64,000 bases of DNA from Candidatus Zixiibacteriota bacterium (GTDB taxonomy: Bacteria > Zixibacteria > MSB-5A5 > GN15 > FEB-12). The number at the start of each line of letters is the position of its first letter. Positions within the stretch are counted from its first letter, which is position 1. The notes below the pieces were generated by a model that worked only from the letters and a program-made list of their open reading frames with translations, did no database searches and was not told the DNA's origin. Position numbers and translations under genes: made by a program. This document shows, piece after piece, positions 4,823-53,076 of this stretch. The stretch lies in contig JAVEYB010000001.1 of the NCBI GenBank assembly GCA_034003725.1, forward strand, positions 642,641-706,640. The letters are read 5' to 3'.

Positions 4823-4839
4823 GGTGACGTGTCGCTCAC

Positions 4840-6138: not shown

Positions 6139-6408
6139 CGAAGTGTCTCCAGGTGGTCGGTCTGCTCAGCCCGGAGACCGAGGTGCACATACGCGCCACC
6201 GTAGTTCTTCAATGGTATCTTCTTGCTCACTGTGCAGCCGGCCGAGACGAATTTCGGAGGCGCAGTACAACCGTTAAACACCGGAATGTCGGAATAGTTT
6301 TCGGGTAACGCCAAAAAAACCGCCTCGTCGTCGGCTATGTCGCGCCACGGCCGTTGCCGGTCCCAAATTAGACGCCGGACGAACGGTGCACAAGAGCGAA
6401 TTCACGTA

Positions 6409-8633: not shown

Positions 8634-8650
8634 TTGGCACTGTTCATGCC
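8634..8650 (+). promoter_or_regulatory. sigma-54 (RpoN) promoter
   Basis: TTGGCACTGTTCATGCC fits the -24/-12 consensus (TGGCAC, five bases, TTGC) with one mismatch in the -12 element. The invariant GG (8636-8637) and GC (8648-8649) are separated by exactly ten bases. A start site near 8660 would give a 36-base leader ending in an AAAGGAG ribosome site before the ATG of the glycine-zipper gene. Expression would therefore need an NtrC-type activator, such as the one encoded at 33892-35247 or an unlinked one. Confidence 0.65.
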
Positions 8651-8695
8651 ACACAGGTGGCCTAAGGCCAATGCACCTGATATCGAAAGGAGTGC

Positions 8696-9208: not shown

Positions 9209-9313
9209 GACATCCGCGGGGCGAATGAAATACGACCGGTAGTGGGACCGGGCCACCGGAGTGGCGGCTCAACTTTCCTGCCATAAACCCGATATTATGG
9301 ATAGGGTTAGGCG

Positions 9314-9982
9314 ATGAAAACACTCCATTACCTGATGATCGGTCTTGCAATCGGGGGCGGGTTCGGCGAGTTCGCAGTCGCCCGGGCGGCCACTGTGGTC
9401 GGGCGGATAATCCGGTCGGCGGTGGTCGAGTCGGGCGACCGGCCGGTTGAACGGTATCGCGGGCGGGTATCGGGCGGCGATCCGGCGGCGATTGCCGATT
9501 GCCGATGCGACCCGGGGCATTATGCGGTGGTGTATCTCACCGGCGACAGTCTGCCGCCAGTGCGTCCGGTGGCGGGCGGCCGCATGACCCAGAAGGACAT
9601 GATGTTTCAGCCGTCCGTGATGGCAGTGACGGTCGGGTCGACCGTGGAGTTTCCCAACCTGGATCCGTTTTACCACAACGTGTTTTCCTACTCGACCACG
9701 CGGAAGTTTGACCTGGGTCGGTACGCGCAGGGGAAGTCCAAGTCGGTGACGTTTGACAAACCGGGACTGGTCAAAATCTTCTGCGAGATACACTATTCGA
9801 TGCGCGCCTATCTGCACGTATTGACCACGCCCTACTTCGCGGTTTCCTCCGAAAGCGGCGAGTTTCGGATTACGGGGGTGACTCCGGGAGACTATCGCCT
9901 TCACGTGTGGCAGGAGAATCAACCCGAACGCGAGCTTACTCTCAGCGTCACCACCGACACGGTAACAGTCGAGATCGATTGA
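9314..9982 (+). CDS. exported cupredoxin, methylamine-utilisation-protein-like
   Basis: A 222-residue periplasmic protein with a signal peptide to about A25 and one plastocyanin-like domain (about 85-175). Type 1 copper ligands are visible: His121 (FYHNVFS), then Cys157, His160 and Met163 in FCEIHYSM. A C-terminal beta segment (about 178-222, SGEFRITGVTPGDYRLHVW) resembles a carboxypeptidase-regulatory-like fold. This is the cupredoxin type often labelled methylamine utilisation protein, but no methylamine dehydrogenase gene is nearby, so that name says nothing about its job. It leads an operon with a sensor kinase nine bases downstream and an outer-membrane barrel. The set suggests copper or redox sensing at the envelope. 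Confidence 0.85.
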   Translation: MKTLHYLMIGLAIGGGFGEFAVARAATVVGRIIRSAVVESGDRPVERYRGRVSGGDPAAIADCRCDPGHYAVVYLTGDSLPPVRPVAGGRMTQKDMMFQPSVMAVTVGSTVEFPNLDPFYHNVFSYSTTRKFDLGRYAQGKSKSVTFDKPGLVKIFCEIHYSMRAYLHVLTTPYFAVSSESGEFRITGVTPGDYRLHVWQENQPERELTLSVTTDTVTVEID

Positions 9983-9991
9983 GGAGTTGCG

Positions 9992-11797
9992 GTGCGCAAT
10001 CGACTGACCCTGACGCGGCGATATCTGCTTTTGATTGCAGCCGTTATGACTGCGTTCATTACCGCGACACTGATGATCACGACTGCCGTAATGAAATCCG
10101 GCATGGTTCGATTGTTCGAACAGCAGATTGTCCGGGCGCGCACGGTCCTGGCGCAGTACGAATCTACGCATTTCCTTTCGCGCGCGCAGGAAATGGATGC
10201 TGTTTTGAGTTCGCCGAGGTTTCTGGCAGCAATAGAGACGGGCGATTCGTCGACGATCACCAATGAGGCCCCCGTGTACCAGGAGATTCTCGGGGCCGAT
10301 GTACTGCTGCTTGCAGACGAGGCGGGACGAATCACTTACATGTCGGGCACGTCAGGTGCCAACGGAAGTTCGCTGCTTCGGCTGGCGTTGATAGACGCGC
10401 GCAATTCTCCGCCACTCCGGTTCGTTTCGCTGGACGACACGGTCTTTGAGTTTTCTGTTCGGCGCGTGTATGCGCAGACCGGGATTTCGATCGGCTGGAT
10501 CATGGCGGGCAAGGAGTATTCATTCGCCATGTCGCGGGATCTGAAGCGACTGACCGGTCTCGACGTGGTGGTGCTGCGGGACACCGCGGTGCTCGGATAT
10601 ACTGACGCCGAGTTAGTTCGTGATATGCGAACGCAGCCGTCGCTGCTCCGTCGCCTTGCATCGTCGGAGCCCGGCGGCCGGGAGCGGGTTGGCGGACGTG
10701 AAATCATGTATTCATGCGTCGCTGGTTCGTGGTCGGATGCCGTGATCGCGTTTGTCGGCTCACCGGACGAGCATGTCGGCCCCATACGCTCTCGGATCAT
10801 GCTCTACCTTGTGCTTTTGGCGCTTGGCGGCGGTGCAGTCTCCATGGGGATCATCTACCTGTTGACGGATCGGTACATCGGTCGGCAGGTGAACCATCTC
10901 GTCCGAGCGGCCGAACAGATAGCCTCGGGCGACCTGGAACGCACGATCGAGCCGAAGTCATCGGATGAGCTGGGGTATCTCGCCGGTGAGATGGAGAGGA
11001 TGCGTTCACGAATCGTGGAAGATATGGCATCGCTGGAACGGGCGCACCAGGAGCGGGTGAAATCGGAGAAGATGGCAGCTCTCGGTCAAATGGCCGCCGG
11101 CATCATACACGATTTCAAGAACCCGATCGGGGTGATACGGGGTACGGTGGAGTTGATCCAGATACGGGGAGCAGACAGCGTCACGCGCGGCCGGTACTGT
11201 GCGACAATCAACGACCAGATAGACCGCATGCTCACTCTGGCCCAGGACGTCCTGACGTACAGCACGGGAGATACGACACTGGCGATTCGCGAAGTGAATC
11301 TCGAAGAGTATTTCGAGTCGTTGCGGCGATTCCATTTCGACGCATTCCAGGCGGCGGGAATTCGTTTGACCATCGAAGGGGACGGCGAGGCGCGGGTGGG
11401 TATCGACCCTGCCCGGTTCCGGCGCGTGCTGGACAACCTGCTCAACAACGCCCGTGACGCGTTGAAACCGGGCCAGGCGGCTGCTGTCCGCTGGAGGGTA
11501 ACCGGGGACGAGTTCATAATTGTCGTCACTGACAACGGCCCCGGGATCAGCGAAGAGATTCGCGACCGCCTGTTTGAACCGTTTGTCACGAGCGGCAAAC
11601 AGGGTGGGACGGGGCTGGGGCTCGCGATCGCCCGCAAAATCGTTGAAGAACATGGCGGCAGAATCGAGGTCATGAGCGCTGAATCGTCCGGGGCGCAGTT
11701 CACGATTGTGATGCCGCGTATCGATCCGACAGCACCGAGGTTGTCACTCGATGCAGCCGCCCTCGCCCCATCGCTGCGCGCAAGGAGCACGGTATGA
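9992..11797 (+). CDS. membrane sensor histidine kinase with periplasmic sensor domain and HAMP
   Basis: A 601-residue kinase. TM1 is at about 11-33, a periplasmic domain of about 230 residues (Cache-like by size and topology) follows, TM2 is at about 270-292, then HAMP (about 293-345). The dimerisation helix carries the phospho-accepting His373 in IIHDFKNP, and the ATPase domain has NLLNNARDAL, DNGPGIS and GGTGLGLAIARK. It starts at GTG nine bases after the cupredoxin stop and overlaps the barrel gene by ATGA, so the three are co-translated. No response regulator is adjacent. The adjoining cupredoxin may deliver the signal, which is inference. Confidence 0.92.
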   Translation: MRNRLTLTRRYLLLIAAVMTAFITATLMITTAVMKSGMVRLFEQQIVRARTVLAQYESTHFLSRAQEMDAVLSSPRFLAAIETGDSSTITNEAPVYQEILGADVLLLADEAGRITYMSGTSGANGSSLLRLALIDARNSPPLRFVSLDDTVFEFSVRRVYAQTGISIGWIMAGKEYSFAMSRDLKRLTGLDVVVLRDTAVLGYTDAELVRDMRTQPSLLRRLASSEPGGRERVGGREIMYSCVAGSWSDAVIAFVGSPDEHVGPIRSRIMLYLVLLALGGGAVSMGIIYLLTDRYIGRQVNHLVRAAEQIASGDLERTIEPKSSDELGYLAGEMERMRSRIVEDMASLERAHQERVKSEKMAALGQMAAGIIHDFKNPIGVIRGTVELIQIRGADSVTRGRYCATINDQIDRMLTLAQDVLTYSTGDTTLAIREVNLEEYFESLRRFHFDAFQAAGIRLTIEGDGEARVGIDPARFRRVLDNLLNNARDALKPGQAAAVRWRVTGDEFIIVVTDNGPGISEEIRDRLFEPFVTSGKQGGTGLGLAIARKIVEEHGGRIEVMSAESSGAQFTIVMPRIDPTAPRLSLDAAALAPSLRARSTV

Positions 11798-12948
11798 GAC
11801 TTTTCAGTCTGGTCTTCGGTTGCCTGATGATCGGTATCACCGCGATGGCGGACGTTCAGTTGTCCGGATTAATCGATGTGGTTGCCAAAAACAGCGCCGA
11901 AGACGATATTACCAACGTCACGTTCAAGGGCTTCTCGACGTTTCATTCTCTGCGCACCCGGACCTTTATCGACGCCGCCGTCAACGAAGACGTGACCGTA
12001 TTCACGCAATTCATTACGGACAACAACACGTTTGCCGTCTACGCGGCCTATGCGCGTTTCAGCAGACTGGCAGGCGGCTACCTCAATGCGAATGCCGGTT
12101 TTATTCCGACGACCGTAGGCTCATTCGTATCGCGGTCCTACAGCGACAAGAACCCGCTTATCGGACGGCCTTTGATGTATAACCATCACTCGGCGTTTGT
12201 GCCGGGGCGAAATGACTCAATCAGGTCGGTTGACGATCTTCTCGACACACGCCAAAACCGGAGCCGCTACGGCTTGCCCGTCATCTACGATGCCTGCTGG
12301 AACACAGGGGTTGAGTTTTACGGCTCGGTCGGTCAGTTCGATTACTCACTGGGTTTCTTGTCCGGATCGGTCGGCTATCCAACGATCGAACAGCGCAAGA
12401 ATATCCCGCAGGTGACGACGCACCTGGTCTGGTATGCCGGTCCGGCGTTCTCTGTCGGGGGTTCGGTGTTTGTCGGGCCGTATCTGTTTGAGGGCGGATT
12501 CGCGGACCAGTTGCCGGGCGTTGAATACGATGCTTCCGGTGAGGCGCCCGCCGAAGCATATGATGATTATCTCAATGTCGGTTTCGCCGGCGAGTTGCAC
12601 TGGTCGGCAGGCTATGTCGATATCTACTCCGAGGTTGTCCACGCATTCTGGGAACATCCGTATCTGCCCGATCTTGGAATTACGGCGGGCTACATCGAAG
12701 GGTCATACAAGCTCGCCGCGGGCTGGTATGTGGCTGCGAGGTACGACCGATGGGAGCCCGGTAAACTCACCGACTCCAACGGCAGCCGGCAATCGTGGGA
12801 CTACCCGGTGCAGCGCCTGGAGGCGGCGCTCGGGTACCATCCGTATCGCCGCGTCACAACGAAACTGGCCGTACAGATCAACAACTTCATCGGTTCGCAG
12901 GAGTTGGACAATGAGCTGGTTGCGCTGCAACTGAGTGTGGGTTTCTAA
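11794..12948 (+). CDS. outer-membrane beta-barrel (porin-like) protein
   Basis: A 384-residue exported protein: signal peptide MRLFSLVFGCLMIGITAMA, then alternating amphipathic strands rich in Tyr, Phe and Gly. It ends in VALQLSVGF, with the terminal aromatic residue expected of a barrel recognised by the Bam machinery. Its start overlaps the kinase stop (ATGA), so it is the third gene of the cupredoxin operon. It probably serves as a porin or anchors the system at the outer membrane. A strong hairpin follows 63 bases after the stop. Confidence 0.78.
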   Translation: MRLFSLVFGCLMIGITAMADVQLSGLIDVVAKNSAEDDITNVTFKGFSTFHSLRTRTFIDAAVNEDVTVFTQFITDNNTFAVYAAYARFSRLAGGYLNANAGFIPTTVGSFVSRSYSDKNPLIGRPLMYNHHSAFVPGRNDSIRSVDDLLDTRQNRSRYGLPVIYDACWNTGVEFYGSVGQFDYSLGFLSGSVGYPTIEQRKNIPQVTTHLVWYAGPAFSVGGSVFVGPYLFEGGFADQLPGVEYDASGEAPAEAYDDYLNVGFAGELHWSAGYVDIYSEVVHAFWEHPYLPDLGITAGYIEGSYKLAAGWYVAARYDRWEPGKLTDSNGSRQSWDYPVQRLEAALGYHPYRRVTTKLAVQINNFIGSQELDNELVALQLSVGF

Positions 12949-13010
12949 GAATCTGGAGGCAGCGACACACGGTGCGCACAGGAAGATGGAAGTGACAACG
13001 AGACAAGACG

Positions 13011-13036
13011 AAACGCCGGGCGTCGGCCCGGCGTTT
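13011..13036. terminator. bidirectional stem-loop terminator between convergent genes
   Basis: A perfect 11-base-pair stem (AAACGCCGGGC and GCCCGGCGTTT) closes on a GTCG tetraloop. It lies between the barrel gene ending at 12948 on the plus strand and the cysteine-rich peptide gene ending at 13077 on the minus strand. Only three T follow on the plus side; the minus side continues TTTCGTCTTGTC. It plausibly ends both transcripts. Confidence 0.7.
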
Positions 13037-13076
13037 GCGTTGACAATCATCAGTCCGAAACCGATTCAATAGCGGG

Positions 13077-13259
13077 CTACAACTTCGGGCACGGTCTGCA
13101 CACTTCCCAGCAGACGATCGGCGGTGTCGTGGTGCACACCATCACCCAGCAGCAGCGGGCGGCTTCGACCTTCGTAGGCGCCGTGATGGTAAATGCGCCG
13201 AGGAATACCATCACCAGTGCGAGCGTCAAGACCAGCGCTCTCAACAGCTTCATGCTCAT
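13077..13259 (-). CDS. tiny secreted six-cysteine peptide
   Basis: A 60-residue open frame behind an unusually strong ribosome site (AAGGAGGTGA). Either ATG at 13259 or 13253 could start it; the second has better spacing. A classical signal peptide (KLLRALVLTLALVMVFLGAF) ends near VEA-A, leaving a mature peptide of roughly 26 residues that holds six cysteines (36, 37, 42, 50, 54, 57) together with Trp and Pro. It lies 45 bases after an exported thioredoxin-like gene on the same strand, which fits disulfide handling or metal/cluster binding. I do not recognise the family. Alternatives are a bacteriocin-like peptide, a metal-binding peptide or an electron carrier subunit. Confidence 0.72.
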   Translation of the reverse strand: MSMKLLRALVLTLALVMVFLGAFTITAPTKVEAARCCWVMVCTTTPPIVCWEVCRPCPKL

Positions 13260-13304
13260 TCACCTCCTTTCGAGCATCGGTTACAGCCCCCTGCAAAGTT
13301 GATT

Positions 13305-13892
13305 TCACTGCACGACCGGACTACCGGTCCGGATGCGTTCGACGGCTCGTATGATCTCGTTCTGTGCGTCCGGTTCGAGCGTGCCCGGCCACGCCTGCAG
13401 CACCATTCCATCGGGCGATACCACCACTGTTTGCGGCAGGACGTGCCCGCGGTAAGCGTCGAGCAATCGGCTGTCCGTGACGGCCACAACCGGATAGGGC
13501 ATCGCATGCGCGTTCGCGAATGTCCGGGCCTCATCGGCGGTGCCTGCGCACAATGCAATAAAACGCAGGTTTTCCGAGGCATACCGGTTGCAGAGACTAT
13601 TCCAGAAATCAAGATTCCCTTCACATGCGTCGCACGAAGGAGAAAACCACAGGACCACGGTTGTCGGAGATTCGATACTGTAGCGGAGGCTAAACGGCAT
13701 GCCGTTTACGTCTTCGCCCGACAGTGCGGGAAGTCGCTGGTCAGCGGCCAGGGGTTCAAACATGGCGGTGAGTTCATCCAGCGATGCCTTCAGATCGCGG
13801 TTTTCATTGATCAGCAGGGCGATTTCCGCAGCCATCAGGACAATGATGACGGCAAAAACGACTGTCCAAATCGTATTGCGGCTAGAGGCCAT
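13305..13892 (-). CDS. membrane-anchored thioredoxin-like (TlpA/redoxin) protein
   Basis: A 195-residue periplasmic thiol-disulfide oxidoreductase. One N-terminal helix (about 8-29) anchors it, then a short coiled linker (ENRDLKASLDELTAMF) and a redoxin fold with the active-site pair C87 and C90 in FSPSCDACEG. The cis-Pro loop reads VLPQTVVVSPDG. Two extra cysteines (about 100 and 114) lie in the fold. It immediately precedes the six-cysteine peptide gene, which may be its substrate. It resembles MauD/TlpA proteins. Divergent and operon neighbours give no further clue. Confidence 0.88.
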   Translation of the reverse strand: MASSRNTIWTVVFAVIIVLMAAEIALLINENRDLKASLDELTAMFEPLAADQRLPALSGEDVNGMPFSLRYSIESPTTVVLWFSPSCDACEGNLDFWNSLCNRYASENLRFIALCAGTADEARTFANAHAMPYPVVAVTDSRLLDAYRGHVLPQTVVVSPDGMVLQAWPGTLEPDAQNEIIRAVERIRTGSPVVQ

Positions 13893-41358: not shown

Positions 41359-41889
41359 ATGATTGCATGTCGCACTCGCACAATTGCACTTCTGGCCGCG
41401 CTCGCTGCACTGGCGCTGGTGGTGGGATGCTCTTCGGGACCGGAGACCGAGGCCGAGCGGCAGGCCCGCTGGCAGCAGGGGCAGCTCACCAGCTGGGAGC
41501 TGGAGCACGGTATCGGTCCGATCACGGCTGATGTGGCGCTGGCGCCGGTCGATGCGGCGAAGGCAGCCCGCGGCCGGGAACTGTTCATCGCCAAATGCGC
41601 GACCTGTCATTACCTGGACGATCGCAAAACGGGGCCGGCGCTTCGCGACATTACCACCCGCCGCAGCGCCGAGTACGTACTTAACCAGATTCTCAATCCC
41701 GAGCAGATGGGGAAGCTGCATCCGGACGGCAGGAAGATGGTGGCGCAATATGCGCAGTACATGACTATCCAGGGAATCACGAACGATAACGCGACGGACC
41801 TGCTGGACTTCCTTCGCTCGGAGGCGGACAAGCCGCCGGTGCCGCTTGAGCAGCAGCCCGGCGCTCATGTACCGCCGCCCGCAAACTAG
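41359..41889 (+). CDS. class I cytochrome c lipoprotein of the nos cluster
   Basis: A 176-residue monoheme cytochrome c. The signal sequence ends in a lipobox (LALVVGCSS), so it is probably tethered to a membrane on the periplasmic side. The heme site CATCH (in FIAKCATCHYLDDR) follows, with the distal Met probably in NPEQMGKLHPDGRKM. A Pro-rich tail closes it. First gene of the nos block, 51 bases before nosZ; the obvious candidate electron donor to NosZ, as no other cytochrome, NosR or NosGH is present. Confidence 0.88.
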   Translation: MIACRTRTIALLAALAALALVVGCSSGPETEAERQARWQQGQLTSWELEHGIGPITADVALAPVDAAKAARGRELFIAKCATCHYLDDRKTGPALRDITTRRSAEYVLNQILNPEQMGKLHPDGRKMVAQYAQYMTIQGITNDNATDLLDFLRSEADKPPVPLEQQPGAHVPPPAN

Positions 41890-41940: not shown

Positions 41941-43863
41941 ATGAAAAGGATATTATCGAAGACGATTTGGATCGGCGCCGTGGCACTGGCCGCATCTGTC
42001 ATGACCGGCGGATGCGGAAACGGCAGCAAGGACGGCGTCGCCGGAACGGGCGACGCCGCATCGAAGGTATATGTCGCCCCCGGGACTCACGACGAGTTCT
42101 ACGCCTTCATGTCCGGGGGATTCTCCGGGCAGGTCGGCGTCTACGGCCTGCCGTCGGGGCGCCTGCTTCGGCACGTGCCGGTCTTCTCGCAAAACGCCGA
42201 GAACGGGTACGGATACAGTGAGGAAACGAAGAATCTTTTCATGACGTCGTTCGGGTTCGTTCCGTGGGACGACGCGCATCATCCGCAACTTTCGCAGACC
42301 GACGGTGTGCCGGACGGTCGGTGGTTGTTCATCAACGGGAACAACACGCCGCGCGTAGCGCGGCTCGATCTGGCCACGTTCGAGACGGCGGAGATCATCG
42401 AGCTGCCGCATTCCGGTGGAAATCACGCGTCGCCGTTCTTGACGCCCAACACCGAATACGTGCTGGCCGGCACTCGTTTCAGCGTGCCGATCCCGCAACA
42501 GGACGTGCCGATCAACACCTACAAGGACAACTTCAAGGGCACATTGTCCTTCATTAAGATCGACTCGACCAGCGGCGCCATGTCGCTCGCGTTCCAGATC
42601 CTGGTGCCGGGTTTCAATTATGACTTGTCCCATTCCGGCAAGGGTCCGTCACACGGCTGGGCGTTTTTCTCGACCTACAATACGGAGCAGGCCAGCACAC
42701 TGCTGGAAGTGAACGCGTCACGCAACGACAAGGACTATATGGCCGCGGTCAACTGGAAGCTGGCTGAGCGATATGTGGCCGAGGGCAAGGCGAAAGACAT
42801 TCCGGCGTCGTATCGGCACAACTATCTCGATGACGCCCGCATTGCGCAGAGCGAGATCGTCAAGTCCGTTAAGATACTTGACCCACGCGAGTGTCCCGGG
42901 ATGATCTATTACATTCCCACGCCGAAGTCACCGCACGGCGCCGACGTCGATCCCACCGGCGAGTACATTGTCGGCGGGGGCAAGCTGGCGACCGTTATTC
43001 CAGTTCACTCGTTCTCAAAAATGCTGAAAGCGATCGAGAACAAGGAGTTTGACGGTGAGGTGGACGGTATACCGATTTTGAAGTACGAATCGGTTCTGGC
43101 CGGAGAGGTTCAGAACCCGGGTCTGGGGCCGCTCCACACCGAGTTCGACGGTAAGGGTTATGCATACACGTCGATGTTCATATCGTCGGAGATCGTGAAG
43201 TGGAAACTGGGGACATGGGAAGTTGTCGACCGCGCCCCGGCGTACTACTCGATCGGGCACCTGATGATCCCGGGCGGCGACAGCAGATCCCCGTTCGGCA
43301 AGTACGTGATTGCACTCAATAAAATCACCAAGGATCGGTACCTGCCGACCGGACCGGAACTGACACATTCCGCGCAGCTGTATGACATCACCGGCGATAA
43401 AATGAAGCTTTTGCTCGACTTCCCGACTATCGGCGAGCCGCACTACGCCCAGGCGCTGCCGGCCTCGCTGGTCAAGGATCGATCGGTGAAGTACTTCCCT
43501 ATCGCCGAGAACACACATCCGCATGCGATCAAGGCCGAGAATGAGGCGCGGGTCGAACGTGACGGCAGACTGGTCCGGGTCTATATGTCGACGATACGGA
43601 CGCATTTCGCACCTGACAACATTGAAGGAATCAGGGTCGGCGATTCGGTGTTATTCCACGTCACGAATCTGGAACAGGACTGGGATGTGCCTCACGGTTT
43701 TGCGGTGATGGGCGCCAACAACGCCGAGCTTCTGGTCATGCCCGGCGAGACGCGCACGCTCGCGTGGAAACCGCAGGCAGCGGGAGTGATTCCGTTCTAC
43801 TGCACCGACTTCTGCTCGGCGCTGCACCAGGAAATGCAGGGATATATCCGGGTATCCCGATAA
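41941..43863 (+). CDS. nosZ: nitrous oxide reductase, Sec-type (clade II)
   Basis: Reduces N2O to N2 in the periplasm using the CuA and tetranuclear CuZ centres; 640 residues. The beta-propeller has the CuZ motif DDAHHPQLSQTDG (H113, H114) and later His motifs such as SPHGADVDPTGEY. The C-terminal cupredoxin domain carries the CuA ligands C621, C625, H629 and M632 in CTDFCSALHQEMQGYIRV, with the other His in WDVPHGF. The N-terminus lacks the twin-arginine motif of clade I and reads as a Sec signal ending MTGGC, which also satisfies a lipobox. An AGGAGAGG ribosome site precedes the ATG. Confidence 0.97.
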   Translation: MKRILSKTIWIGAVALAASVMTGGCGNGSKDGVAGTGDAASKVYVAPGTHDEFYAFMSGGFSGQVGVYGLPSGRLLRHVPVFSQNAENGYGYSEETKNLFMTSFGFVPWDDAHHPQLSQTDGVPDGRWLFINGNNTPRVARLDLATFETAEIIELPHSGGNHASPFLTPNTEYVLAGTRFSVPIPQQDVPINTYKDNFKGTLSFIKIDSTSGAMSLAFQILVPGFNYDLSHSGKGPSHGWAFFSTYNTEQASTLLEVNASRNDKDYMAAVNWKLAERYVAEGKAKDIPASYRHNYLDDARIAQSEIVKSVKILDPRECPGMIYYIPTPKSPHGADVDPTGEYIVGGGKLATVIPVHSFSKMLKAIENKEFDGEVDGIPILKYESVLAGEVQNPGLGPLHTEFDGKGYAYTSMFISSEIVKWKLGTWEVVDRAPAYYSIGHLMIPGGDSRSPFGKYVIALNKITKDRYLPTGPELTHSAQLYDITGDKMKLLLDFPTIGEPHYAQALPASLVKDRSVKYFPIAENTHPHAIKAENEARVERDGRLVRVYMSTIRTHFAPDNIEGIRVGDSVLFHVTNLEQDWDVPHGFAVMGANNAELLVMPGETRTLAWKPQAAGVIPFYCTDFCSALHQEMQGYIRVSR

Positions 43864-43973
43864 GGAATGACCCCACGCGTTGCATGATGGAGTCACGGAC
43901 TCAAACAACCGATGCCCGGCAGGCGCACGTAAATGTCGCCTGCCGGGAGACAAACGACAGGAAGAGGCGTACC

Positions 43974-44558
43974 ATGACCGCCGCCGGCCGAATCGTCCTA
44001 GTTATTGCGTCACTGCTGCTGTCTCTGACGTATTTCTTCCCCCTGTGGCAGATATCCCTCGAGGCCCCGCAGTATCCCGAAGGTCTTGGCCTGGAGATAT
44101 GGATAAATCAAATGCAGGGACAGAATCCGGGTGACCTGCAGAAGATCAACAATCTCAATCACTATATCGGCATGAAGACAATTCGCCCGGAATCGATCCG
44201 CGAACTGATCGTCATGCCCTGGGTAATGCGCGCCATCATGCTGTTCGGGCTGATCGCTGCAGCGCTCGGCCGGCGCCGCATGCTGCTGGCCTGGCTGGTG
44301 CTCTTCGCCCTGGTGGCTGCCTCCGGATTGGTCGATTTCTATCTCTGGGGATACGATTACGGCCACAACCTTGACATGGAAAACGCCATCATCAAGGTAC
44401 CGGGGATGACCTACCAACCGCCGCTGATCGGGTCAAAGCAATTGCTGAACTTCACGGCACATTCCTGGCCGGGGATTGCCGGTTGGGTTGCAGTCGGGTC
44501 GTACCTGGTGACGCTGGGGGTCTACATTGTCGAACGGCGCCGCGAGCGGGTCGCATAA
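43974..44558 (+). CDS. nosB: NosB-like integral membrane protein of clade II nos clusters
   Basis: A 194-residue protein with about four helices (near 6-24, 80-98, 102-124 and 163-183). Conserved-looking motifs include YFFPLWQISLEAPQYPEGL and INNLNHYIGMKTI. A membrane protein immediately after nosZ is characteristic of clade II clusters, where it is called NosB; its role is unknown, possibly in electron transfer or NosZ maturation. The frame extends upstream to 43764, but ATG 43974 is the sensible start, preceded by GAAGAGG. Name assigned from position and topology. Confidence 0.72.
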   Translation: MTAAGRIVLVIASLLLSLTYFFPLWQISLEAPQYPEGLGLEIWINQMQGQNPGDLQKINNLNHYIGMKTIRPESIRELIVMPWVMRAIMLFGLIAAALGRRRMLLAWLVLFALVAASGLVDFYLWGYDYGHNLDMENAIIKVPGMTYQPPLIGSKQLLNFTAHSWPGIAGWVAVGSYLVTLGVYIVERRRERVA

Positions 44559-44570
44559 AGGAGGCTGGTT

Positions 44571-45035
44571 GTGAATCTCACTACACGAGCGGCACTGAGT
44601 GTTTGTTTACTGGCCACAGTAGCGATCGGATGCGGCGGCAACGGGCCGGGCACTATGCATTACGGCGATGATCGCTGCGATTACTGCAAGATGCTCGTGG
44701 CCGACCCAGCTTTCGGCTCGCAGCTCGTTTCATCCACGGGAAAAGTATTCAAGTTCGACTCTATCGAGTGTCTTGCGGCGTACGAGTTGGTGCACGAAAG
44801 TGAACTCGGCGAGGCTACGCGGTGGCTGGCCGATATAAACAACCCCGGATCGTTCCTTCGCGGTGATCAGGCGATCGTGATTCGCGGCGAGCGACTTCGC
44901 AGCCCCATGGGCCTTGGGCTGGCGGCGGTGGCATCCGACCAAAAAGCCCGAGACCTCTCGGCTGAAACCAGCGGTGCGAGCATCTCCTGGTCGGAGGTCC
45001 GTGAATATGTTTCTGACGCGTGGGACGTCAGGTAA
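44571..45035 (+). CDS. nosL: NosL copper chaperone lipoprotein
   Basis: A 154-residue periplasmic lipoprotein (lipobox VAIGCGG, about C21). The NosL copper-binding motif CDYCKMLVADPAFG lies near 36-49, followed by KFDSIECLAAYE. NosL binds Cu+ and supplies it to apo-NosZ with the NosDFY complex. It starts with GTG at 44571 behind AAAGGAGG, 12 bases after nosB. Confidence 0.93.
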   Translation: MNLTTRAALSVCLLATVAIGCGGNGPGTMHYGDDRCDYCKMLVADPAFGSQLVSSTGKVFKFDSIECLAAYELVHESELGEATRWLADINNPGSFLRGDQAIVIRGERLRSPMGLGLAAVASDQKARDLSAETSGASISWSEVREYVSDAWDVR

Positions 45036-45051
45036 GTCTGGGAGTAGTTCA

Positions 45052-46329
45052 GTGGGTCTTGGTCACTTCTCTCATACGTGGACCGGGCGGCTGTTTCCGA
45101 CAGTCGCCATAACGTGCGCACTCTTTTTCGTGAGCAACTTTGCGGTGGCAGCACGGGTTTTGCCGGTGCGCACGGGCGGTACATATTCGACCATTGCAGA
45201 CGCGGTTTCGGCAGCCAGGACCGACGACACGGTTCTCGTGACGACCGGCGTTCATACCGCGCCTAATCTAACGATCGACAAGTCTATCGCACTGATCGGC
45301 GAGGAAGGCGCCATAGTAGACGCGCAATCCATCGGCCCGATGTTCACCGTCACGGCGGCGAATGTCACGATCCGCAATCTCCGACTCATTAATGTTCCGA
45401 CCGCGTTTACGGCAGAACACGCGGCAATACTGCTTGAAGGCGTTGAACACGCGATGATTGCGGACAACCGGATTGAGAACTGCTTCTTCGGCGTTTACGC
45501 GGCCAATTCTCAGGCCTGTGTGATCCGCGACAACGTCATTGAAGGTCGTCAGGCTCGTCTCACATCGGCCGGCAATGGCATTCACCTGTGGTACTGCCGA
45601 GACATCACGATTACAGGGAACGTCGTCACCGGCCATCGGGACGGTATCTACATGGAGTTCGTCCGATCGAGCACCGTTGACAGCAACGTATGCCGTAACA
45701 ACCTCCGATACGGGCTGCATTACATGTTTTCCGACAGCAGCCGATACGCGGACAATCATTTTGCGAGCAACGGCGCGGGAGTGGCGGTCATGTACACTAG
45801 TAATGTCTTGATGCAAGGCAACACATTCGAAAGGAGTTGGGGCGGCGCGTCTTACGGAGTCCTGCTGAAGGATATCAGGGACAGCCGTATTATCGGCAAC
45901 ATGTTTCTCAGTAATTCGATCGGTTTGCATATTGAGGGCTCCGACCGGGTTTACATTGCCCGCAACCTATTCAAGCAGAACGGCTGGGCGATAAAACTGA
46001 TGGCGAACTGCCTCGACAACACCATTACCGTAAACGACTTTCTGGACAACTCCTTCTCCGTAGCGACGAATAGCCGTCAGAACCACAGCACGTTCGACGG
46101 CAATTACTGGAGTGATTATGCCGGGATCGATCTTGACCGCAACGGATACGGCGATTTGCCTTTTCGTCCTGTCAGCCTCTTCTCTCTTCTGGTCGAGTCG
46201 CACCCGCCGTCATTGGTGCTTCTGCGCAGCGCTCTCATAGGAGTACTTGACCTGGCGGAGCGTGCGCTGCCCTCACTTACCCCGGCAACGTTGATTGACA
46301 GCAACCCATCGATGAGACCGAATTTATGA
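45052..46329 (+). CDS. nosD: NosD periplasmic copper-site maturation protein
   Basis: A 425-residue exported protein with CASH/right-handed beta-helix repeats (about 55-370), repeatedly showing xNxIxxNxxG patterns such as NGIHLWYCRDITITGN and HYMFSDSS. NosD works with the NosFY ABC transporter to mature the CuZ site. I chose the GTG at 45052 (GGGAG seven bases ahead, 16 bases after the nosL stop) because it puts the signal peptide (TVAITCALFFVSNFAVAA) at the N-terminus; the frame is open from 44914 inside nosL. Its stop overlaps the nosF ATG. Confidence 0.93.
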   Translation: MGLGHFSHTWTGRLFPTVAITCALFFVSNFAVAARVLPVRTGGTYSTIADAVSAARTDDTVLVTTGVHTAPNLTIDKSIALIGEEGAIVDAQSIGPMFTVTAANVTIRNLRLINVPTAFTAEHAAILLEGVEHAMIADNRIENCFFGVYAANSQACVIRDNVIEGRQARLTSAGNGIHLWYCRDITITGNVVTGHRDGIYMEFVRSSTVDSNVCRNNLRYGLHYMFSDSSRYADNHFASNGAGVAVMYTSNVLMQGNTFERSWGGASYGVLLKDIRDSRIIGNMFLSNSIGLHIEGSDRVYIARNLFKQNGWAIKLMANCLDNTITVNDFLDNSFSVATNSRQNHSTFDGNYWSDYAGIDLDRNGYGDLPFRPVSLFSLLVESHPPSLVLLRSALIGVLDLAERALPSLTPATLIDSNPSMRPNL

Positions 46330-47036
46330 TCGAAGTCCGAAAACTCACCAAGCGGTTCCGTAAGTTCAACGCCCTGAACGACGTTTCGTTCTGTCTGCGG
46401 CGGGGCCGATGCACCGGCATTATCGGGCCGAACGGTTCCGGCAAATCCACGCTGATAAAGTGTCTGCTGGGGCTGGTCCGCCCCACTGACGGCGTTATCC
46501 TGGTGGACGATCGCCTTGCGGACCGGGCCGGCGTTTATCGCCGCCGAATCGGGTACATGCCTCAGGTCGCAACGTTCCCGCAGGATCTCACCGGCCGAGA
46601 GGTGATTGAGCTAGTGGTTCGACTGCGGTCGGAACGGCCGGATCACCTTTCATATCTTTTGGACTTGTTCGATCTGCACACCCAGATGGACAAGCGCATT
46701 CGCACTCTTTCGGGGGGGACACGCCAGAAACTGAGCGCCGTTGTCGCCGCCATGTACGACCCGGAGCTGCTGATTCTCGATGAGCCGACAGCGGGATTGG
46801 ATCCTTCGACGTGTCGTCAGTTCAAGGAGTACCTTCTCGAGCGAAAGTCGGCGGGACGTTCGATCCTCATTACGACTCATATCATCAGCGACCTCGATGA
46901 GATGGCCGACGATATCGTGCTCCTGCTGGACGGCGCCGTACACTATGCCGGGTCGGTTCGCGACTTGAAACTGGCCACCGACAGTCTGCATCTCGAATCG
47001 GCGGTGGCGCATATTCTTGAACGGGGGGCTGCATGA
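46326..47036 (+). CDS. nosF: NosF ABC transporter ATPase
   Basis: A 236-residue cytoplasmic ATPase that powers NosY. Walker A is GPNGSGKST (34-42), the signature LSGGTRQKLSA replaces the usual LSGGQ, and Walker B with the catalytic Glu is LLILDEPTAGLDP. The H-loop His lies in ILITTHIISD. ATGA overlaps join it to nosD and nosY. Confidence 0.95.
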   Translation: MIEVRKLTKRFRKFNALNDVSFCLRRGRCTGIIGPNGSGKSTLIKCLLGLVRPTDGVILVDDRLADRAGVYRRRIGYMPQVATFPQDLTGREVIELVVRLRSERPDHLSYLLDLFDLHTQMDKRIRTLSGGTRQKLSAVVAAMYDPELLILDEPTAGLDPSTCRQFKEYLLERKSAGRSILITTHIISDLDEMADDIVLLLDGAVHYAGSVRDLKLATDSLHLESAVAHILERGAA

Positions 47037-47824
47037 ACGCGACCCGTCACGTGATCGGATTCGTCGTGAAGGACATTCTCCGGAGCCGATGGAGCATCAT
47101 GAACATGGTATTCTATGCGGCGACAACCAGCGGCTTGTTCTATCTGCAGGCGGACGCTACCAAAGTGGCGATCAGCCTCGCCAGTCTCAGCCTTGTGTTT
47201 GTCCCGCTGGTCAGCCTGCTTTTCACGTCGATGTATTTCTACAATTCGCGTAGTTTCGTCGAACTCATTCTTACTCAGCCGGTCAGCCGGCTCACGGTGT
47301 TCGTCGGCCTGTATGCGGGGATAATTGTTTCGCTGGTGGCGGGGCTGGTGGTGGGAGTTTTCGTTCCCTATGCCGCGTTCGGGTCGTTCAATTCGACCGA
47401 CGTCGGTGCGCTGACTGCCGTGATGGTAATCGGCGTTTCTTTGAGCGCCGTGTTCGTCGGGCTCGCGTTCCTGACCGCCATTCGGTTCGACGACCGTGGA
47501 AAAGGGCTAGCAGTCGTTCTCGGCGTGTGGCTGGTGGCCGCTATCGTGTACGACGGTCTTGTCCTCGCCGCCGCAACCGCATTCTCGCATTACCCGCTCG
47601 AGACACCGTTGCTTGCAGCGTCTCTTGCGAATCCGGTGGACCTCGCCCGTGTCGTGTTCCTTGTCCACTCGGACATGGCAGCGTTGATGGGTTATACCGG
47701 GGCAGTGTTCGTCCGTTTCTTCGATCAGACCGCCGGTCTGGCGCTAGCGGCCGCATCGATGCTGGTATGGACGGTCGCGCCGCTGTTATTCGGTCTTTGC
47801 AGGTTCAGGGCGAAGGACTTCTAG
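47033..47824 (+). CDS. nosY: NosY ABC transporter permease
   Basis: A 263-residue inner-membrane permease with about six helices. The family motifs are visible in FYNSRSFVELILTQPVSR and in the late segment LANPVDLARV. With NosD and NosF it forms the complex needed to assemble the NosZ CuZ site. It starts inside the nosF stop (ATGA) and ends the tightly coupled nosDFY block; the receptor gene begins 62 bases on. Confidence 0.94.
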   Translation: MNATRHVIGFVVKDILRSRWSIMNMVFYAATTSGLFYLQADATKVAISLASLSLVFVPLVSLLFTSMYFYNSRSFVELILTQPVSRLTVFVGLYAGIIVSLVAGLVVGVFVPYAAFGSFNSTDVGALTAVMVIGVSLSAVFVGLAFLTAIRFDDRGKGLAVVLGVWLVAAIVYDGLVLAAATAFSHYPLETPLLAASLANPVDLARVVFLVHSDMAALMGYTGAVFVRFFDQTAGLALAAASMLVWTVAPLLFGLCRFRAKDF

Positions 47825-47886: not shown

Positions 47887-49779
47887 ATGGCTATGTTTCG
47901 ATCACTGCTGGTCGCCGCTTTCTGTGTGTACGGCATGGTTTCGCCGTTAGAGGCACGCAGTGCGGCATCGGACTCGACAGGCGCTGACGCCGATACACTT
48001 GATGTCGTACTGTCTACGACAATAGTGGTATCCGGTACGCGCCTGCAGCGCGACAGCACGGAATTCCCGTTCGAAAAGAACCGCTTCGCCGACCTTCTGC
48101 AAACGAGAGGCTTCGGGCTGATCCAGAAGGGCGTGTATTTTGCGCAGGACGTGTACGCCGACGGGTTCAAACGAAGCGATATCAACATCGTGATTGACGG
48201 CGAGCGGTATCATAACGCCTGCCCCAACCGGATGGATAATCCGCTGGCACGCGTCAATCCGCTCGAAATGGGCAGCATCGTCCTTGAGAAAACCTCGGCC
48301 CACGACAAGCCGGGACTCGGGGGGACCGTGTCCTACCATCGGGATCTACCTGACGCCGCGGAGCGTATCCGCTTCGGTGTATCTCACGGCTTCGGGGCCG
48401 TTCCATCACGCGACCTGGCCGTTTCCCTTGCGACCGATCGCCATCGGGTCTCCGCGCAGTATGCCGAGGGCTCCGACTATACTGACGGCGACGGGCGGGA
48501 TTTTTCGGACGCGTACGGCTATGACGATAACATCACGTACCGCATGGGCGAGATTAGTGTTGCCGGACTTCGCGGCGACTGGCAGTATCGTGGCGAGGTG
48601 ATGTACACCCAGGACGTGATGTTCCCGTATCTGATGATGGACGAGCGCGACGTCGTCGTGATGAGTTCGTCCTTGTCATGGCGTCGCCATCGATTCTATT
48701 TCACCCACACTTCCCACCTGATGAACAACGGGCTGCGGGAATCGATGGGCCTCATGGAGACGGATGCCCGGAACACCACACTCGGACTTACGGGTTCATT
48801 CTACGAGGTGGTGGCCAGATTCTGGAACGCCGACAATCTGATCGCCATGCCGTCGGTTCGTATGACAAACCACATCGTACCCGACCTTCGCACGTTCAGC
48901 GGCGCGTTATGGAGGCGGGTGTCGAAGGGCGACTTGCTTGCCTGGGGCAGACTTGGGGTAAGCCAGACTGTTCTCGGCGACAAAAGCCAGCTCTCTTTCT
49001 ATTCTCAGCTGTTCGCCGATGCGGCCGATAAGCGGGCATATCCGACCTACGCTGCGGGCGCAGGGTACCGACGCAGTGTGATGGGGAGGGCGACCGCCGG
49101 CGGTTCGGTTGATGTTATTTCGGAGCCGCCGTCACCGGAACAGCTTTACCTGGCCTATCGAGCGCCCATGGGACATGCCTGGTGGGCGGGAAACCCGGAA
49201 CTCAAGGCGCCGGTCCGCGCGACGGTTCGTGCGGATTTCGCGACCTCGGGCCTTCGGGCCGAGCTTTCCGGTGCACGGGTGTGGAACTATGTTGAGCAGG
49301 TGCGGATGTCTGCAGGCGGACGCGCCTATCGCTCATATCAAAACGTAGACGCGGTCCTGTTCTCAATCGCACTCAGCGGTTCGTGGAGATACCTTGACTT
49401 TAATGCCGCGTACACCCGCGGGACCAACACCGGAAGCGACTCGGCACTGGTCGAGATCGCGCCATTGGCGGTAGTGTCCCGTATCAAGCTTCCCGTCTCT
49501 CATTCGGCGGAAGTGTTCGTACGCCACACGTACAACGACGCACAGTCACGTATCGATGAGTCACTCGGTGAGACGCCCACACCGTCGTGGCATCGGTTCG
49601 ATCTTGGAGCCGGCGTTCGTCTCGGCGCAGCGGTGCTTTCCGTGGAGGTACGGAATCTCAGCGATGAATTGTACCATCAACATCTCTCCTACTCGCGAAG
49701 CCCCTACGCCTCGGGTAGCCGGTTGTATGAACCGGGGCGTTCCGTATCGCTCAGTCTTTTGATGGATGTGGGAGATTAG
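47887..49779 (+). CDS. TonB-dependent copper receptor (OprC/NosA-like)
   Basis: A 630-residue outer-membrane receptor with a signal peptide to about A23, a plug domain (about 40-150) and a 22-strand-type barrel ending RSVSLSLLMDVGD. The plug contains ACPNRMDNP, giving C112xxxM116, and the barrel contains SHLMN, giving H277xM279. These match in type and spacing the CxxxM-HxM copper site described for Pseudomonas OprC. NosA of N2O reducers belongs to the same group. Directly downstream of nosY, it probably brings copper into the periplasm for NosZ. ATG 47887 follows GGGAGG. Confidence 0.88.
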   Translation: MAMFRSLLVAAFCVYGMVSPLEARSAASDSTGADADTLDVVLSTTIVVSGTRLQRDSTEFPFEKNRFADLLQTRGFGLIQKGVYFAQDVYADGFKRSDINIVIDGERYHNACPNRMDNPLARVNPLEMGSIVLEKTSAHDKPGLGGTVSYHRDLPDAAERIRFGVSHGFGAVPSRDLAVSLATDRHRVSAQYAEGSDYTDGDGRDFSDAYGYDDNITYRMGEISVAGLRGDWQYRGEVMYTQDVMFPYLMMDERDVVVMSSSLSWRRHRFYFTHTSHLMNNGLRESMGLMETDARNTTLGLTGSFYEVVARFWNADNLIAMPSVRMTNHIVPDLRTFSGALWRRVSKGDLLAWGRLGVSQTVLGDKSQLSFYSQLFADAADKRAYPTYAAGAGYRRSVMGRATAGGSVDVISEPPSPEQLYLAYRAPMGHAWWAGNPELKAPVRATVRADFATSGLRAELSGARVWNYVEQVRMSAGGRAYRSYQNVDAVLFSIALSGSWRYLDFNAAYTRGTNTGSDSALVEIAPLAVVSRIKLPVSHSAEVFVRHTYNDAQSRIDESLGETPTPSWHRFDLGAGVRLGAAVLSVEVRNLSDELYHQHLSYSRSPYASGSRLYEPGRSVSLSLLMDVGD

Positions 49780-49800: not shown

Positions 49801-51276
49801 ATGTGGAAACTTTCACGCCTGTTCGGCGAATCGCTCAAGGAGACAGGACCACGCATAACGCGTCTGTACGCGGTCACAATCGGGGGGCTGGCGGTCGTCG
49901 GCCTCCTCGCGGCGGCGGCGTTGCTGCTGGAACTCGCACAACCGACCCCCTGGTTGCTTAACCCCGTGCAGTTCGGTTCGCTTCTCACCCTGCATGGGAT
50001 CATCATGGTCTTTCTGGTGACGGTCCACCTCTTCCCTGCAGTCCTGGGAACGGCCTTCATACCGAAGGCTGTGGGTGCGTCGAAACTCGCTATGCCGCGT
50101 GCGAACCTGTTCGGCTGGCTGCTGTTTACTCTTGGTTCTGTGGCCGTAGTATGCGGAGCGCAGTTCGGCAGGCACCAGGGCGGGTGGAAAATGACACTGC
50201 CGCCCGATGTCGGCGCCGAACCGGCTTTTGTCGTTCTCGTCGCCGGTCTGGGTGCGACCGCGCTCGCGAGTCTTATCGTGAATCTGTCGCTCGTGGCCAC
50301 GGTCTTCGCCGGAAAGCACCGCAGCATCTCTCTGTCGGCAGTCCCATTGTCCGCGTGGTTCTTCGTGTTTGGCTCGCTGATGCAACTCGTCGTGGTGCCA
50401 GCCCGATTCTGGTTCCTCGCGGCGCGACTGCCCGGAGTCGATGAGGCACTTATCAATCCGATTGCCGGGATTGAGCCGTCCGTGTTGCTTCGGCACCTGT
50501 TCTGGATCTACGCAAACCCGGCGATTCTGTCGGTACTGCTACCCGCGATCGGGGTCGCGTGTGCAATAATCGAAGGAGACCGGTCCCGGGTGCGGCTGCC
50601 TCGGCGGAGTCTTCTTGCCGGCGGCATAGCGTTGAGTCTTCTCGGGCTTGTCTCCTGGGGTCAACACCTGCTGACGGCGTTCGATCCCGGGTTTGTGGCC
50701 GTTTCGGGAAGCCTGTACGGTCTGCTCACGATTGTTCCAGCGACGCTTATCTTCTTTGTACTGCTTCGACACTGGCTGCCCGGCGGACCATACCCCTCCG
50801 TCCCAAATCTCGCACTGTTCGGCCAGATATCGACGTTCGCGGTTCTCGTCCTCAGCGGCGTCGCGCTGGCGGTCCCGGCGACCGGAGTGCATCTGCACAA
50901 TACCTATACAACCGTTGCGCATCTTCACTTCGGAGTGATTGGTATCGGAGTGATGGGGTTCGTCGCAGGTGCAGCGCATTTTCGATCGAGGACCGCACAG
51001 CAACTAAGCAAAACGCCGATTCTCGGTATGATCCTGGGCCTTCATGCAACATTCATTCCACTCATTCTGATTGGCTTGGGAGGGGCCCCTCGTGCATACC
51101 AGAACTATGCGCCCGGTGCACATTCCAGTCATATTATCGCGGCAATCGGTGGACTGGTATTGATTGTCTCAGTGATTGGATGGCTGGTAGATGTATGGCG
51201 CACCGGACGCCGGACCGCAGTTCCGGCCATCGTTTCATCGCAGGATCGGGTGGGAGATTACGCCGCTGAAGTGTAG
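49801..51276 (+). CDS. heme-copper oxidase subunit I homologue lacking most CuB ligands
   Basis: A 491-residue membrane protein with about 12 helices that follows the CoxA/CyoB pattern. Heme ligand positions are kept: H65 (LHGIIMVFLV), and H374 and H376 (TTVAHLHFGVIG). The propionate loop GAPRAYQNYAPG matches GxPRRYxDY. The CuB site is altered: the HPEVY motif reads NPAIL (N239 for His, L243 for the cross-linked Tyr), and the HH pair reads QH (Q288, H289). It therefore cannot hold a normal CuB centre or reduce O2 in the usual way. Its position between nos genes and NO-response genes suggests a nitrogen-oxide role. Start at ATG 49801, 21 bases after the receptor. Confidence 0.82.
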   Translation: MWKLSRLFGESLKETGPRITRLYAVTIGGLAVVGLLAAAALLLELAQPTPWLLNPVQFGSLLTLHGIIMVFLVTVHLFPAVLGTAFIPKAVGASKLAMPRANLFGWLLFTLGSVAVVCGAQFGRHQGGWKMTLPPDVGAEPAFVVLVAGLGATALASLIVNLSLVATVFAGKHRSISLSAVPLSAWFFVFGSLMQLVVVPARFWFLAARLPGVDEALINPIAGIEPSVLLRHLFWIYANPAILSVLLPAIGVACAIIEGDRSRVRLPRRSLLAGGIALSLLGLVSWGQHLLTAFDPGFVAVSGSLYGLLTIVPATLIFFVLLRHWLPGGPYPSVPNLALFGQISTFAVLVLSGVALAVPATGVHLHNTYTTVAHLHFGVIGIGVMGFVAGAAHFRSRTAQQLSKTPILGMILGLHATFIPLILIGLGGAPRAYQNYAPGAHSSHIIAAIGGLVLIVSVIGWLVDVWRTGRRTAVPAIVSSQDRVGDYAAEV

Positions 51277-51295: not shown

Positions 51296-51835
51296 CTATC
51301 CACGCATGAAGTACGTCCGGAAGTCGTCGGCAGCTTGTTTCGTCGTCCACACCTGATAGCCCCGCTTTTGTGCCGTGTCAATCAACGGTGCAGGCTCGAA
51401 CGGCGTGATCAGTTCGAGAATCTGTTCACCGGAGAGGCGGCGGAGAGTCTGCATTACCATACCGAGAGGCTGTTCGCCGGCATCGATCATAGGTCGGGCG
51501 TCGATCGTCTCCGTCACTCGCGAGCGGTCCAACCAATCCGGACTAGTCGGCGATGTGTCGGCAGCTGCGCCGCCGGCCGAGGCCCCGGATTCGTACTCGG
51601 GCTGGCCGACCGCCTGACGAAGCCGCCGCACCAGGTCCGCTATCGGCACATTGCCGACTCGCGCCGCCTGAGACAGGCTGGTCACACGCGCGACCGTACG
51701 ACGGAGAACCGGGTTACGGAGTTTCTTGAACGGCGGTGCGATCTCTATGAGAACCGCCTCCAGCTCAGGAAAGGCATCGAGCAGCTCGGCGACTTTCGTC
51801 TGCGGTGATATCAGTATTTTCTGCCGGTCGCTCAT
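51296..51835 (-). CDS. DUF1858-DUF2249 two-domain protein
   Basis: A 179-residue cytoplasmic protein. Residues about 7-75 match DUF1858 (ISPQTKVAELLDAFPELEAVL, PPFKKLRNPVLRRTVARV), and about 107-175 match DUF2249 (ETIDARPMIDAGEQPLGMV, ILELITPFEPAPLI), a TusA-like fold. These domains commonly co-occur with DUF438 and hemerythrin proteins in nitric-oxide and nitrite-responsive loci and in [Fe-S] repair neighbourhoods. It follows the DUF438 gene by eight bases and so is in its operon, convergent with the oxidase homologue. Biochemical role unknown. Confidence 0.88.
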   Translation of the reverse strand: MSDRQKILISPQTKVAELLDAFPELEAVLIEIAPPFKKLRNPVLRRTVARVTSLSQAARVGNVPIADLVRRLRQAVGQPEYESGASAGGAAADTSPTSPDWLDRSRVTETIDARPMIDAGEQPLGMVMQTLRRLSGEQILELITPFEPAPLIDTAQKRGYQVWTTKQAADDFRTYFMRG

Positions 51836-51843
51836 GCAGGCGC

Positions 51844-53076
51844 CTATTCGTACGATAAAAGTCGTTTCTGTCCGCTGAGGGCTCGCTTGGCGGTCAAATC
51901 CTGGCTCACCTCGAGCGTCCCCAGATAAGTCCCGTTTTCATCGCGCACGGCGAAGTACTCGATATGGATGAATCTGCCATGCAACTCGATCCAGAACGGC
52001 GCTTGATTCGCACGGCCCGCCTTGAAATCGTCGAGAATCTTCTGCACGATGTGGACGCTTGCCGGCGGATGGCACATCTGGACTTTGCGGCCGATGATCG
52101 CCCGGTTGCGTTCGAAGATTCGTTCGCGCCCCTGTGTGAAGTACTTCACCGTGTCGTCTGCACCCACAAAGGTCAGATCGAACGGAATCGTATTCAGTAT
52201 CGTTTGAATTTCGAGCGGGCTCAGGCTCCCGCTCGGAAATTGCAGACGCTCGTCGGTGGCTGTCGATCCGGTATCCTCCAGTTCAAACTTCGAGGGCTGC
52301 CATCGGTCGACCGGATCGTAGATACAGAAACCGATTTGGGGGCTCTGTCGGTAAATCTCATACCATTCAGTCTCGGTCAACTTGTCGAGACACATCGGAA
52401 AGAGGATTTCCTCCTCTTTGAAGATCATCTCTTTGATGGCTTCCGTGGCCGGCCGCAGGACCAGTTCGACAACACTCCGAGCATCGTCCGCCGAGACCGA
52501 TCCCTGGTACTGCAGCGCTTCAATAGCCCCCTTGACCGCTGTCCGCACTTCGTCGTCTTTTCCCCACATCACGGTAGGCGGCCCGGTGATTCCCTTGGCT
52601 TCGAGGTAGGGGAAGACGAGGTTTTCCTTGCGGCTGTAGTGTTTGCCGACATCGGCCAGCCGGCTGAACCGAAGACGTAATTGACCGAGTATCTCAGTGG
52701 CATCGGCATCATCCGAGAGTGTTGCGAGTTCGGCGAACTGTTTGTCTGCCAGCTCCAGTTCGCCGATCAATGCCTTGTTCTCCTGACGGAAGGTGTGTAC
52801 GGGATGACCGGGCGGAACGGATTTGGCGGCGGATGTATCGAGGGCGCCTTTCATCGCAGCGGAATGCAGGTCGCACAGTTTCATGATCTCTTCGGCGGGA
52901 ACGCCGTCCTGAATCAATTCCTGCTCAACCGCAACCACTTCGTCGTACGGCACGCGCCCCAACAGCCGAAACAACTGCGGTTTAACATCCTCCGGCGCTG
53001 ATCCCTCGTGAAGTTGAAGGATCAGGTGTTTGAGGACGGCGCGTCGTGCTTTCGCATTGTCTATCAATTCGCTCAT
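51844..53076 (-). CDS. DUF438-hemerythrin-PAS protein
   Basis: A 410-residue cytoplasmic protein. The N-terminal DUF438 domain is at about 1-75 (KHLILQLHEGSAPEDVKPQL). A hemerythrin-like four-helix domain spans about 90-245 with candidate di-iron ligands in GHPVHTFRQENKAL, GKHYSRKENLVFPYLE and FKEEEILFPMC. A PAS domain (about 290-405) holds IPFDLTFVGADDTVKYFTQG. Such proteins bind NO or O2 at the iron site and recur in nitrogen-oxide stress loci. First gene of a two-gene operon; a Crp/Fnr-type box lies upstream. Confidence 0.9.
   Translation of the reverse strand: MSELIDNAKARRAVLKHLILQLHEGSAPEDVKPQLFRLLGRVPYDEVVAVEQELIQDGVPAEEIMKLCDLHSAAMKGALDTSAAKSVPPGHPVHTFRQENKALIGELELADKQFAELATLSDDADATEILGQLRLRFSRLADVGKHYSRKENLVFPYLEAKGITGPPTVMWGKDDEVRTAVKGAIEALQYQGSVSADDARSVVELVLRPATEAIKEMIFKEEEILFPMCLDKLTETEWYEIYRQSPQIGFCIYDPVDRWQPSKFELEDTGSTATDERLQFPSGSLSPLEIQTILNTIPFDLTFVGADDTVKYFTQGRERIFERNRAIIGRKVQMCHPPASVHIVQKILDDFKAGRANQAPFWIELHGRFIHIEYFAVRDENGTYLGTLEVSQDLTAKRALSGQKRLLSYE

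Follow-up and report, generated by a model that had tools for sequence, protein, structure and literature searches.

The NosG, NosH, NosC1, NosC2 and NosR proteins encoded in nos operons are FeS or flavin proteins and do not have the heme-copper fold. Electrons are proposed to reach clade II NosZ, the N2O reductase, by means of (i) a cytochrome bc complex; or (ii) NosGH/NosBC2/NosC1, an accessory membrane electron-transfer role having been described for these Nos proteins and for NosR (PMC11539149). A second group of related systems comprises the heme-copper NO reductases (cNOR, qNOR, eNOR, sNOR and gNOR), in which a scaffold derived from oxidases is linked to nitrogen oxides; they may be devoid of the cross-linked tyrosine and the proton channels, and carry E, Q, N or D at the oxidase tyrosine position (PMC8756737, Table A4). 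A third is subunit I (CtaD/CoxA) of the A2-type (caa3) oxygen reductases. A nos-linked homologue of oxidase subunit I was not found described in literature titles and abstracts, among which the coverage of subscription journals is thin. The gene reported here is such a homologue, for which an accessory electron-transfer role comparable to that of the Nos proteins is proposed.

The stretch of DNA analysed (64,000 nucleotides; hereafter, the window) contains a clade II nos cluster in which all genes, from that of a cytochrome c through that of the oxidase homologue, run in a single direction on the + strand. Its features are as follows:

41359-41889, + strand: lipoprotein-like monoheme cytochrome c (CATCH), upstream of nosZ
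41941-43863, + strand: clade II-type NosZ, N2O reductase (Pfam)
43684-43854, + strand: CuA domain of NosZ, motif CTDFCSALHQEM intact, the sole COX2-like stretch in the window
43764-44558, + strand: NosB-like membrane protein, recognised by its place after nosZ and its conservation in relatives (no Pfam match); true start probably near 43974
44571-45035, + strand: NosL (Pfam)
44914-46329, + strand: NosD (Pfam); the ORF start is called too early
46326-47036, + strand: NosF, ABC ATPase (Pfam)
47033-47824, + strand: NosY, ABC-2 permease (Pfam)
47887-49779, + strand: OprC-like outer-membrane receptor, between nosY and the oxidase homologue
49801-51276, + strand: CuB-less A2-type heme-copper oxidase subunit I homologue; ATG start, intact ORF, 491 amino acids, 12 predicted transmembrane helices

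The gap between the stop codon of the receptor gene and the start of the 49801-51276 gene is of about 20 bases, and a simple, uninformative scan for promoters between 46900 and 51900 found no site. On the opposite strand follow (51296-53076, Pfam) the genes of a DUF1858/DUF2249 protein and of a DUF438/hemerythrin/PAS protein; the latter has an 81% identical counterpart in the related genome G009, at the same place beside the oxidase homologue. The domain matches bear out the setting described in an earlier reading made from the sequence alone (hereafter, the sequence-only reading), which placed the gene between a clade II nos cluster with its receptor and DUF1858/DUF2249/DUF438 proteins. The same reading had seen no subunit II or III nearby, and with this the subunit queries agree: COX2 matches in the whole window only the NosZ CuA domain (33% identity over 57 residues, E 3e-4), and COX3 and COX4 match nothing in it, so that subunit IV is absent too. 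NosG, NosH, NosC1, NosC2 and NosR were not recognised in the window's cluster.

The encoded protein matches Pfam COX1 over essentially its whole length (residues 18-453 of 491, E 2e-49), while its score with the NCBIfam model of CtaD/CoxA, TIGR02891, is 209 bits, the cut-off being 671. A structure predicted from an alignment of the window protein and 31 oxidase sequences has 12 long helices (mean pLDDT 78.7, pTM 0.84), and its best PDB matches are A-family oxidase subunits I. Identity to ordinary oxidases amounts to 25-30%, which makes the alignment less certain beyond the motifs. Metal-site and channel residues were mapped by alignment to solved oxidases and to 27 A2-type oxidases, and the key positions are the following:

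49993-49995, + strand: codon of H65, low-spin heme ligand, invariant in the eight family members described below
50515-50529, + strand: NPAIL, residues 239-243, replacing HPxVY (CuB His240 to Asn, Tyr244 to Leu)
50662-50667, + strand: QH, residues 288-289, replacing HH (CuB His290 to Gln, His291 retained)
50920-50928, + strand: HLH, residues 374-376 (H374, heme a3 ligand; H376, low-spin heme ligand)

At the CuB site, N239, Q288 and H289 occupy the positions of His240, His290 and His291, respectively, and L243 that of the cross-linked active-site Tyr244. This alignment confirms two points of the sequence-only reading: (i) that H65, H374 and H376 are retained heme-ligand histidines; and (ii) that the changes of HPEVY to NPAIL and of HH to QH remove two CuB histidines and the tyrosine. 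That reading had allowed that other histidines might fall at the CuB positions, and no other histidine of the protein aligns with one. It understated the extent of the loss, since the proton channels had been overlooked: K95 stands at the D-channel aspartate and I317 at the K-channel lysine, and both channels are lost.

The window protein has the attributes of the heme-copper superfamily fold, i.e., a COX1 domain, 12 helices and bis-histidine low-spin heme ligands, and lacks the four that characterise an A-family oxygen reductase: (i) the set of CuB histidines; (ii) the tyrosine; (iii) the D and K channels; and (iv) a nearby CuA-bearing subunit II. With A2-type subunit I, nearest to it in the tree, it shares fold, length, number of helices and low-spin heme ligands; it differs in the missing CuB site, tyrosine and D and K channels, in having no subunit II-IV genes nearby and in its place within a nos operon.

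Relatives with open frames were found in eight genomes of one small candidate phylum (the window's genome included), all eight of which carry clade II nosZ. Searches of 61 and then of 132 related genomes yielded G032, G009, G015, G010, G016 and G064, the last from another family of the class, and G086 was recognised as the eighth member by reading its nos cluster; since it was found in this way, members as divergent as this one could be missed where nosZ is absent. Ordinary oxidases whose sites are intact made up nearly all that a contig scan with the single protein returned, and the orthologues come from the genome search and from nosZ-anchored retrieval. The one exception of that scan, a Bacteroidales MAG (L015, JAAYJT010000002.1), has at 2956-13586 an operon that resembles one of alternative complex III and continues with the genes of a caa3 oxidase. 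CuB ligands are missing from subunit I of this oxidase (RPAIY, GQH), and the Cys, Cys and His of CuA from its subunit II; the heme ligands and the cytochrome c CxxCH of subunit II are retained. This operon would apparently represent an independent copper-free oxidase; the NosZ of the same genome is 61% identical to that of the window.

In a tree with A1 and A2 oxidases as its only references, the eight members group together as a single clade next to the A2 oxidases (support 96/92; 99/99 for a core of six), with several long branches and with the positions of G086 and G016 unsure. Substitutions of the N/Q type are indeed found again in homologues beside nos genes: the CuB triplet reads N/Q/H in three members (window, G032 and G009), G/R/H in G015, G/Q/N in G010, S/E/H in G016, G/Q/H in G064 and H/Q/H in G086. 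The existence of open relatives in seven further genomes, whose sites are altered in several different ways, excludes chance or sequencing error. Intact-site homologues, which according to the sequence-only reading would turn this copy into merely a decayed oxidase, do exist as ordinary A2 oxidases of the phylum (all those whose motifs were read have intact sites), one of them in the window's own genome; but these constitute a separate group at a different locus. A functionless oxidase in decay could account for the long branches, the odd composition and the lost copper site and proton channels. Nevertheless, frames of about 490-510 amino acids remain open in the eight genomes at only 26-51% identity to the window's protein, two heme ligands are invariant and the place in the operon is fixed. 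Open frames that persist for so long point to selection and largely refute decay, a very improbable explanation. The 49801-51276 gene is not merely a decayed oxidase copy.

The positions that the family has kept are informative. Both low-spin heme histidines, H65 and H376, are present in 8/8 members and the heme a3 histidine, H374, in 7/8 (a further likeness to A2-type subunit I), the exception being a glutamine in G064, a nos-linked member. Among the CuB histidines, His240 is kept in 1/8, His290 in 0/8 and His291 in 7/8; the K-channel lysine is kept in none, and the tyrosine position holds L, S, T or Y. Each member retains 39-61% (mean 46%) of the 114 columns invariant among A2 oxidases. This pattern indicates that the low-spin heme is the conserved cofactor site and that the oxygen chemistry is gone.

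The retained heme a3 histidine might instead serve the binding, sensing or reduction of NO (or another nitrogen oxide) at a five-coordinate high-spin heme, the protein being then an NO reductase-like or NO-protective enzyme. Several NO reductase families did originate in the heme-copper superfamily (PMC8756737); in the window, as in G009, G064 and G086, hemerythrin/DUF438-type proteins are encoded nearby; and the G086 cluster includes, besides the nos genes and its divergent homologue, a qNOR gene (L155:13418-15640), Rrf2 and hemerythrin-like genes intervening. But membership of the NO reductases was rejected on account of the residues at the tyrosine position, as opposed to the E, N, Q or D of those families (PMC8756737), of a variable pocket in which the former CuB site takes several forms and has lost metal-site histidines, and of the loss of the heme a3 ligand in G064. 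Moreover, the window's genome already has a separate, ordinary qNOR, besides an ordinary A2 oxidase and a fused cbb3 oxidase, and G010, of an estimated 100% completeness, has nosZ, the oxidase homologue and a single other COX1 gene, that of an A2 oxidase, and no NO reductase was found in its genome. The oxidase homologue is, in consequence, separable from NO reduction, and a role in NO chemistry appears quite unlikely. The proposal of the sequence-only reading, a heme-based membrane protein rather than an oxidase, is supported in general terms: of the functions that it listed, electron transfer fits best, and NO binding or conversion fits poorly.

As for gene order, in G009, G010, G015, G032, G064 and G086 the oxidase homologue has the same orientation as nosY and lies immediately 3' of it; in the window it is one gene away, the junction being occupied by the gene of the OprC-like copper receptor, an arrangement restricted, among the genomes examined, to the window's genome. 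In G016, the contig with the oxidase homologue shows no nos genes. Of the 132 genomes of the phylum, 14 carry nosZ (13 plus the G016 fragment), and all seven members recovered by profile search are among them; taken as a simple draw, uncorrected for kinship, this overlap of seven in 14 has a probability of 3e-8. Regarding other nosZ carriers, the nos contigs of G073 and G078 stop before nosY, and G063 has nos genes without an oxidase homologue beside them. The association between the oxidase homologue and nosZ is strong and, in the sample, limited to one small phylum: no subunit I homologue was found in 62 nosZ regions taken from the phylum of a Bacteroidales MAG and from one Rhodothermales MAG. 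These regions yielded only two membrane proteins of 150 amino acids near nosZ (L187:703-1179 and L191:10817-11272), whose SAHTHLILVG motif (HxH) is similar to the helix that bears the heme ligands in heme-copper oxidases.

The maturation genes end with nosY, and in six genomes the oxidase homologue comes directly after it. This place, together with the disappearance of the redox-active copper site, could also mean that the protein is a NosZ maturation or stability factor that acts with NosDFY, NosL and NosB to deliver copper or sulfur or to provide a membrane anchor, its hemes being structural remnants. Such a role is considered unlikely: among the metal ligands, those of the low-spin heme are precisely the invariant feature, and the family alignment reveals no conserved new copper- or sulfur-binding motif.

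Another type of nos cluster in the phylum offers a comparison. In G053, G111 and G116, genes of an FeS-flavoprotein, a Rieske protein, a cytochrome b and a cytochrome c precede nosZ and the oxidase homologue is missing (domains were called on G116; G053 and G111 were assigned by arrangement); their NosZ proteins are only 43-48% identical to that of the window. Rieske/cytochrome b module and oxidase homologue never occur together in the clusters examined. The module, likewise encoded in the nos cluster, would supply NosZ with electrons in the same way, although it consists of unrelated protein families and the window gene is a single subunit I homologue. At the head of Rieske/cytochrome b nos clusters (L175:14343-16262, also L156 and L174), there is a 640-amino-acid protein resembling FeS/pyridine-nucleotide-disulphide oxidoreductases, hinting at a soluble electron input to these clusters.

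The combination of retained low-spin heme ligands, lost copper site and channels, a place after nosY and alternation with the Rieske/cytochrome b module is most simply explained by a protein that moves electrons to NosZ or keeps the partners of NosZ together. The favoured reading is, then, that of a heme-only membrane subunit for electron transfer or docking in N2O respiration, the chances of which are judged to be about even. Homology, the pattern of losses and co-occurrence with nosZ are also cited in its support, and the homologue is encoded in nos clusters of several genomes, as befits a nosZ electron donor. Of the components of the known electron routes to NosZ, only the cytochrome c and the NosB-like protein were seen in the nos clusters of this phylum that have the oxidase homologue. 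Starting from an A2 (caa3-type) oxidase subunit I, a nos-operon-specific derivative would have lost the catalytic copper site and both proton channels while keeping the low-spin heme ligands and, usually, that of the high-spin heme. Electrons would enter from the quinol side, directly or via alternative complex III, and would pass through the low-spin heme, which lies close to the periplasmic side; the cytochrome c of the operon would take them up and hand them to the CuA of NosZ. Heme binding, the path and direction of the electrons and the contact with cytochrome c or NosZ are all deduced from sequence.

Regarding the quinol side, the positions 8 and 5 before H65, which by spacing we take to be those of the quinol-site residues of E. 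coli bo3 subunit I, vary across the family alignment, and a bo3-type quinol site was discarded. A bc-type cytochrome b was not found in the window's genome, where an NrfD gene neighbours that of the A2 oxidase, in the manner of alternative complex III. Since NrfD genes are present in all the genomes examined, electrons may come from this complex in any case. Likewise, many Bacteroidota clusters, as well as G063, have the cytochrome c-nosZ arrangement without an oxidase homologue, which is therefore not obligatory.

A more specific and rather doubtful version of the favoured reading is that the oxidase became part of an N2O-respiring complex, in which NosZ, with its CuA domain homologous to subunit II, and the cytochrome c would replace the other subunits, and the old oxidase heme would wire or anchor the N2O reductase at the membrane. 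Consistent with it, in one genome, G086, the cytochrome c preceding nosZ (L155:3775-4548) is still fused to a prokaryotic COX4 (caa3 subunit IV) domain, which along 93 residues shares 55% identity with part of the caa3 region of the window's genome; no such fusion was found beyond G086 in the other nos regions collected.

It is the heme-copper centre that defines the heme-copper enzymes, and here a conserved branch without that centre is fixed in operons for the reduction of N2O, a greenhouse gas destroyed by NosZ. Since family models name such genes cytochrome oxidase, genome surveys would miscount them as oxygen respiration. The finding bears on electron delivery to clade II NosZ, an incompletely solved step of N2O removal, and suggests that a protein of oxygen respiration has been re-used for N2O respiration in one uncultured lineage. 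If this is true, the heme-copper scaffold can act as a heme-only electron carrier.
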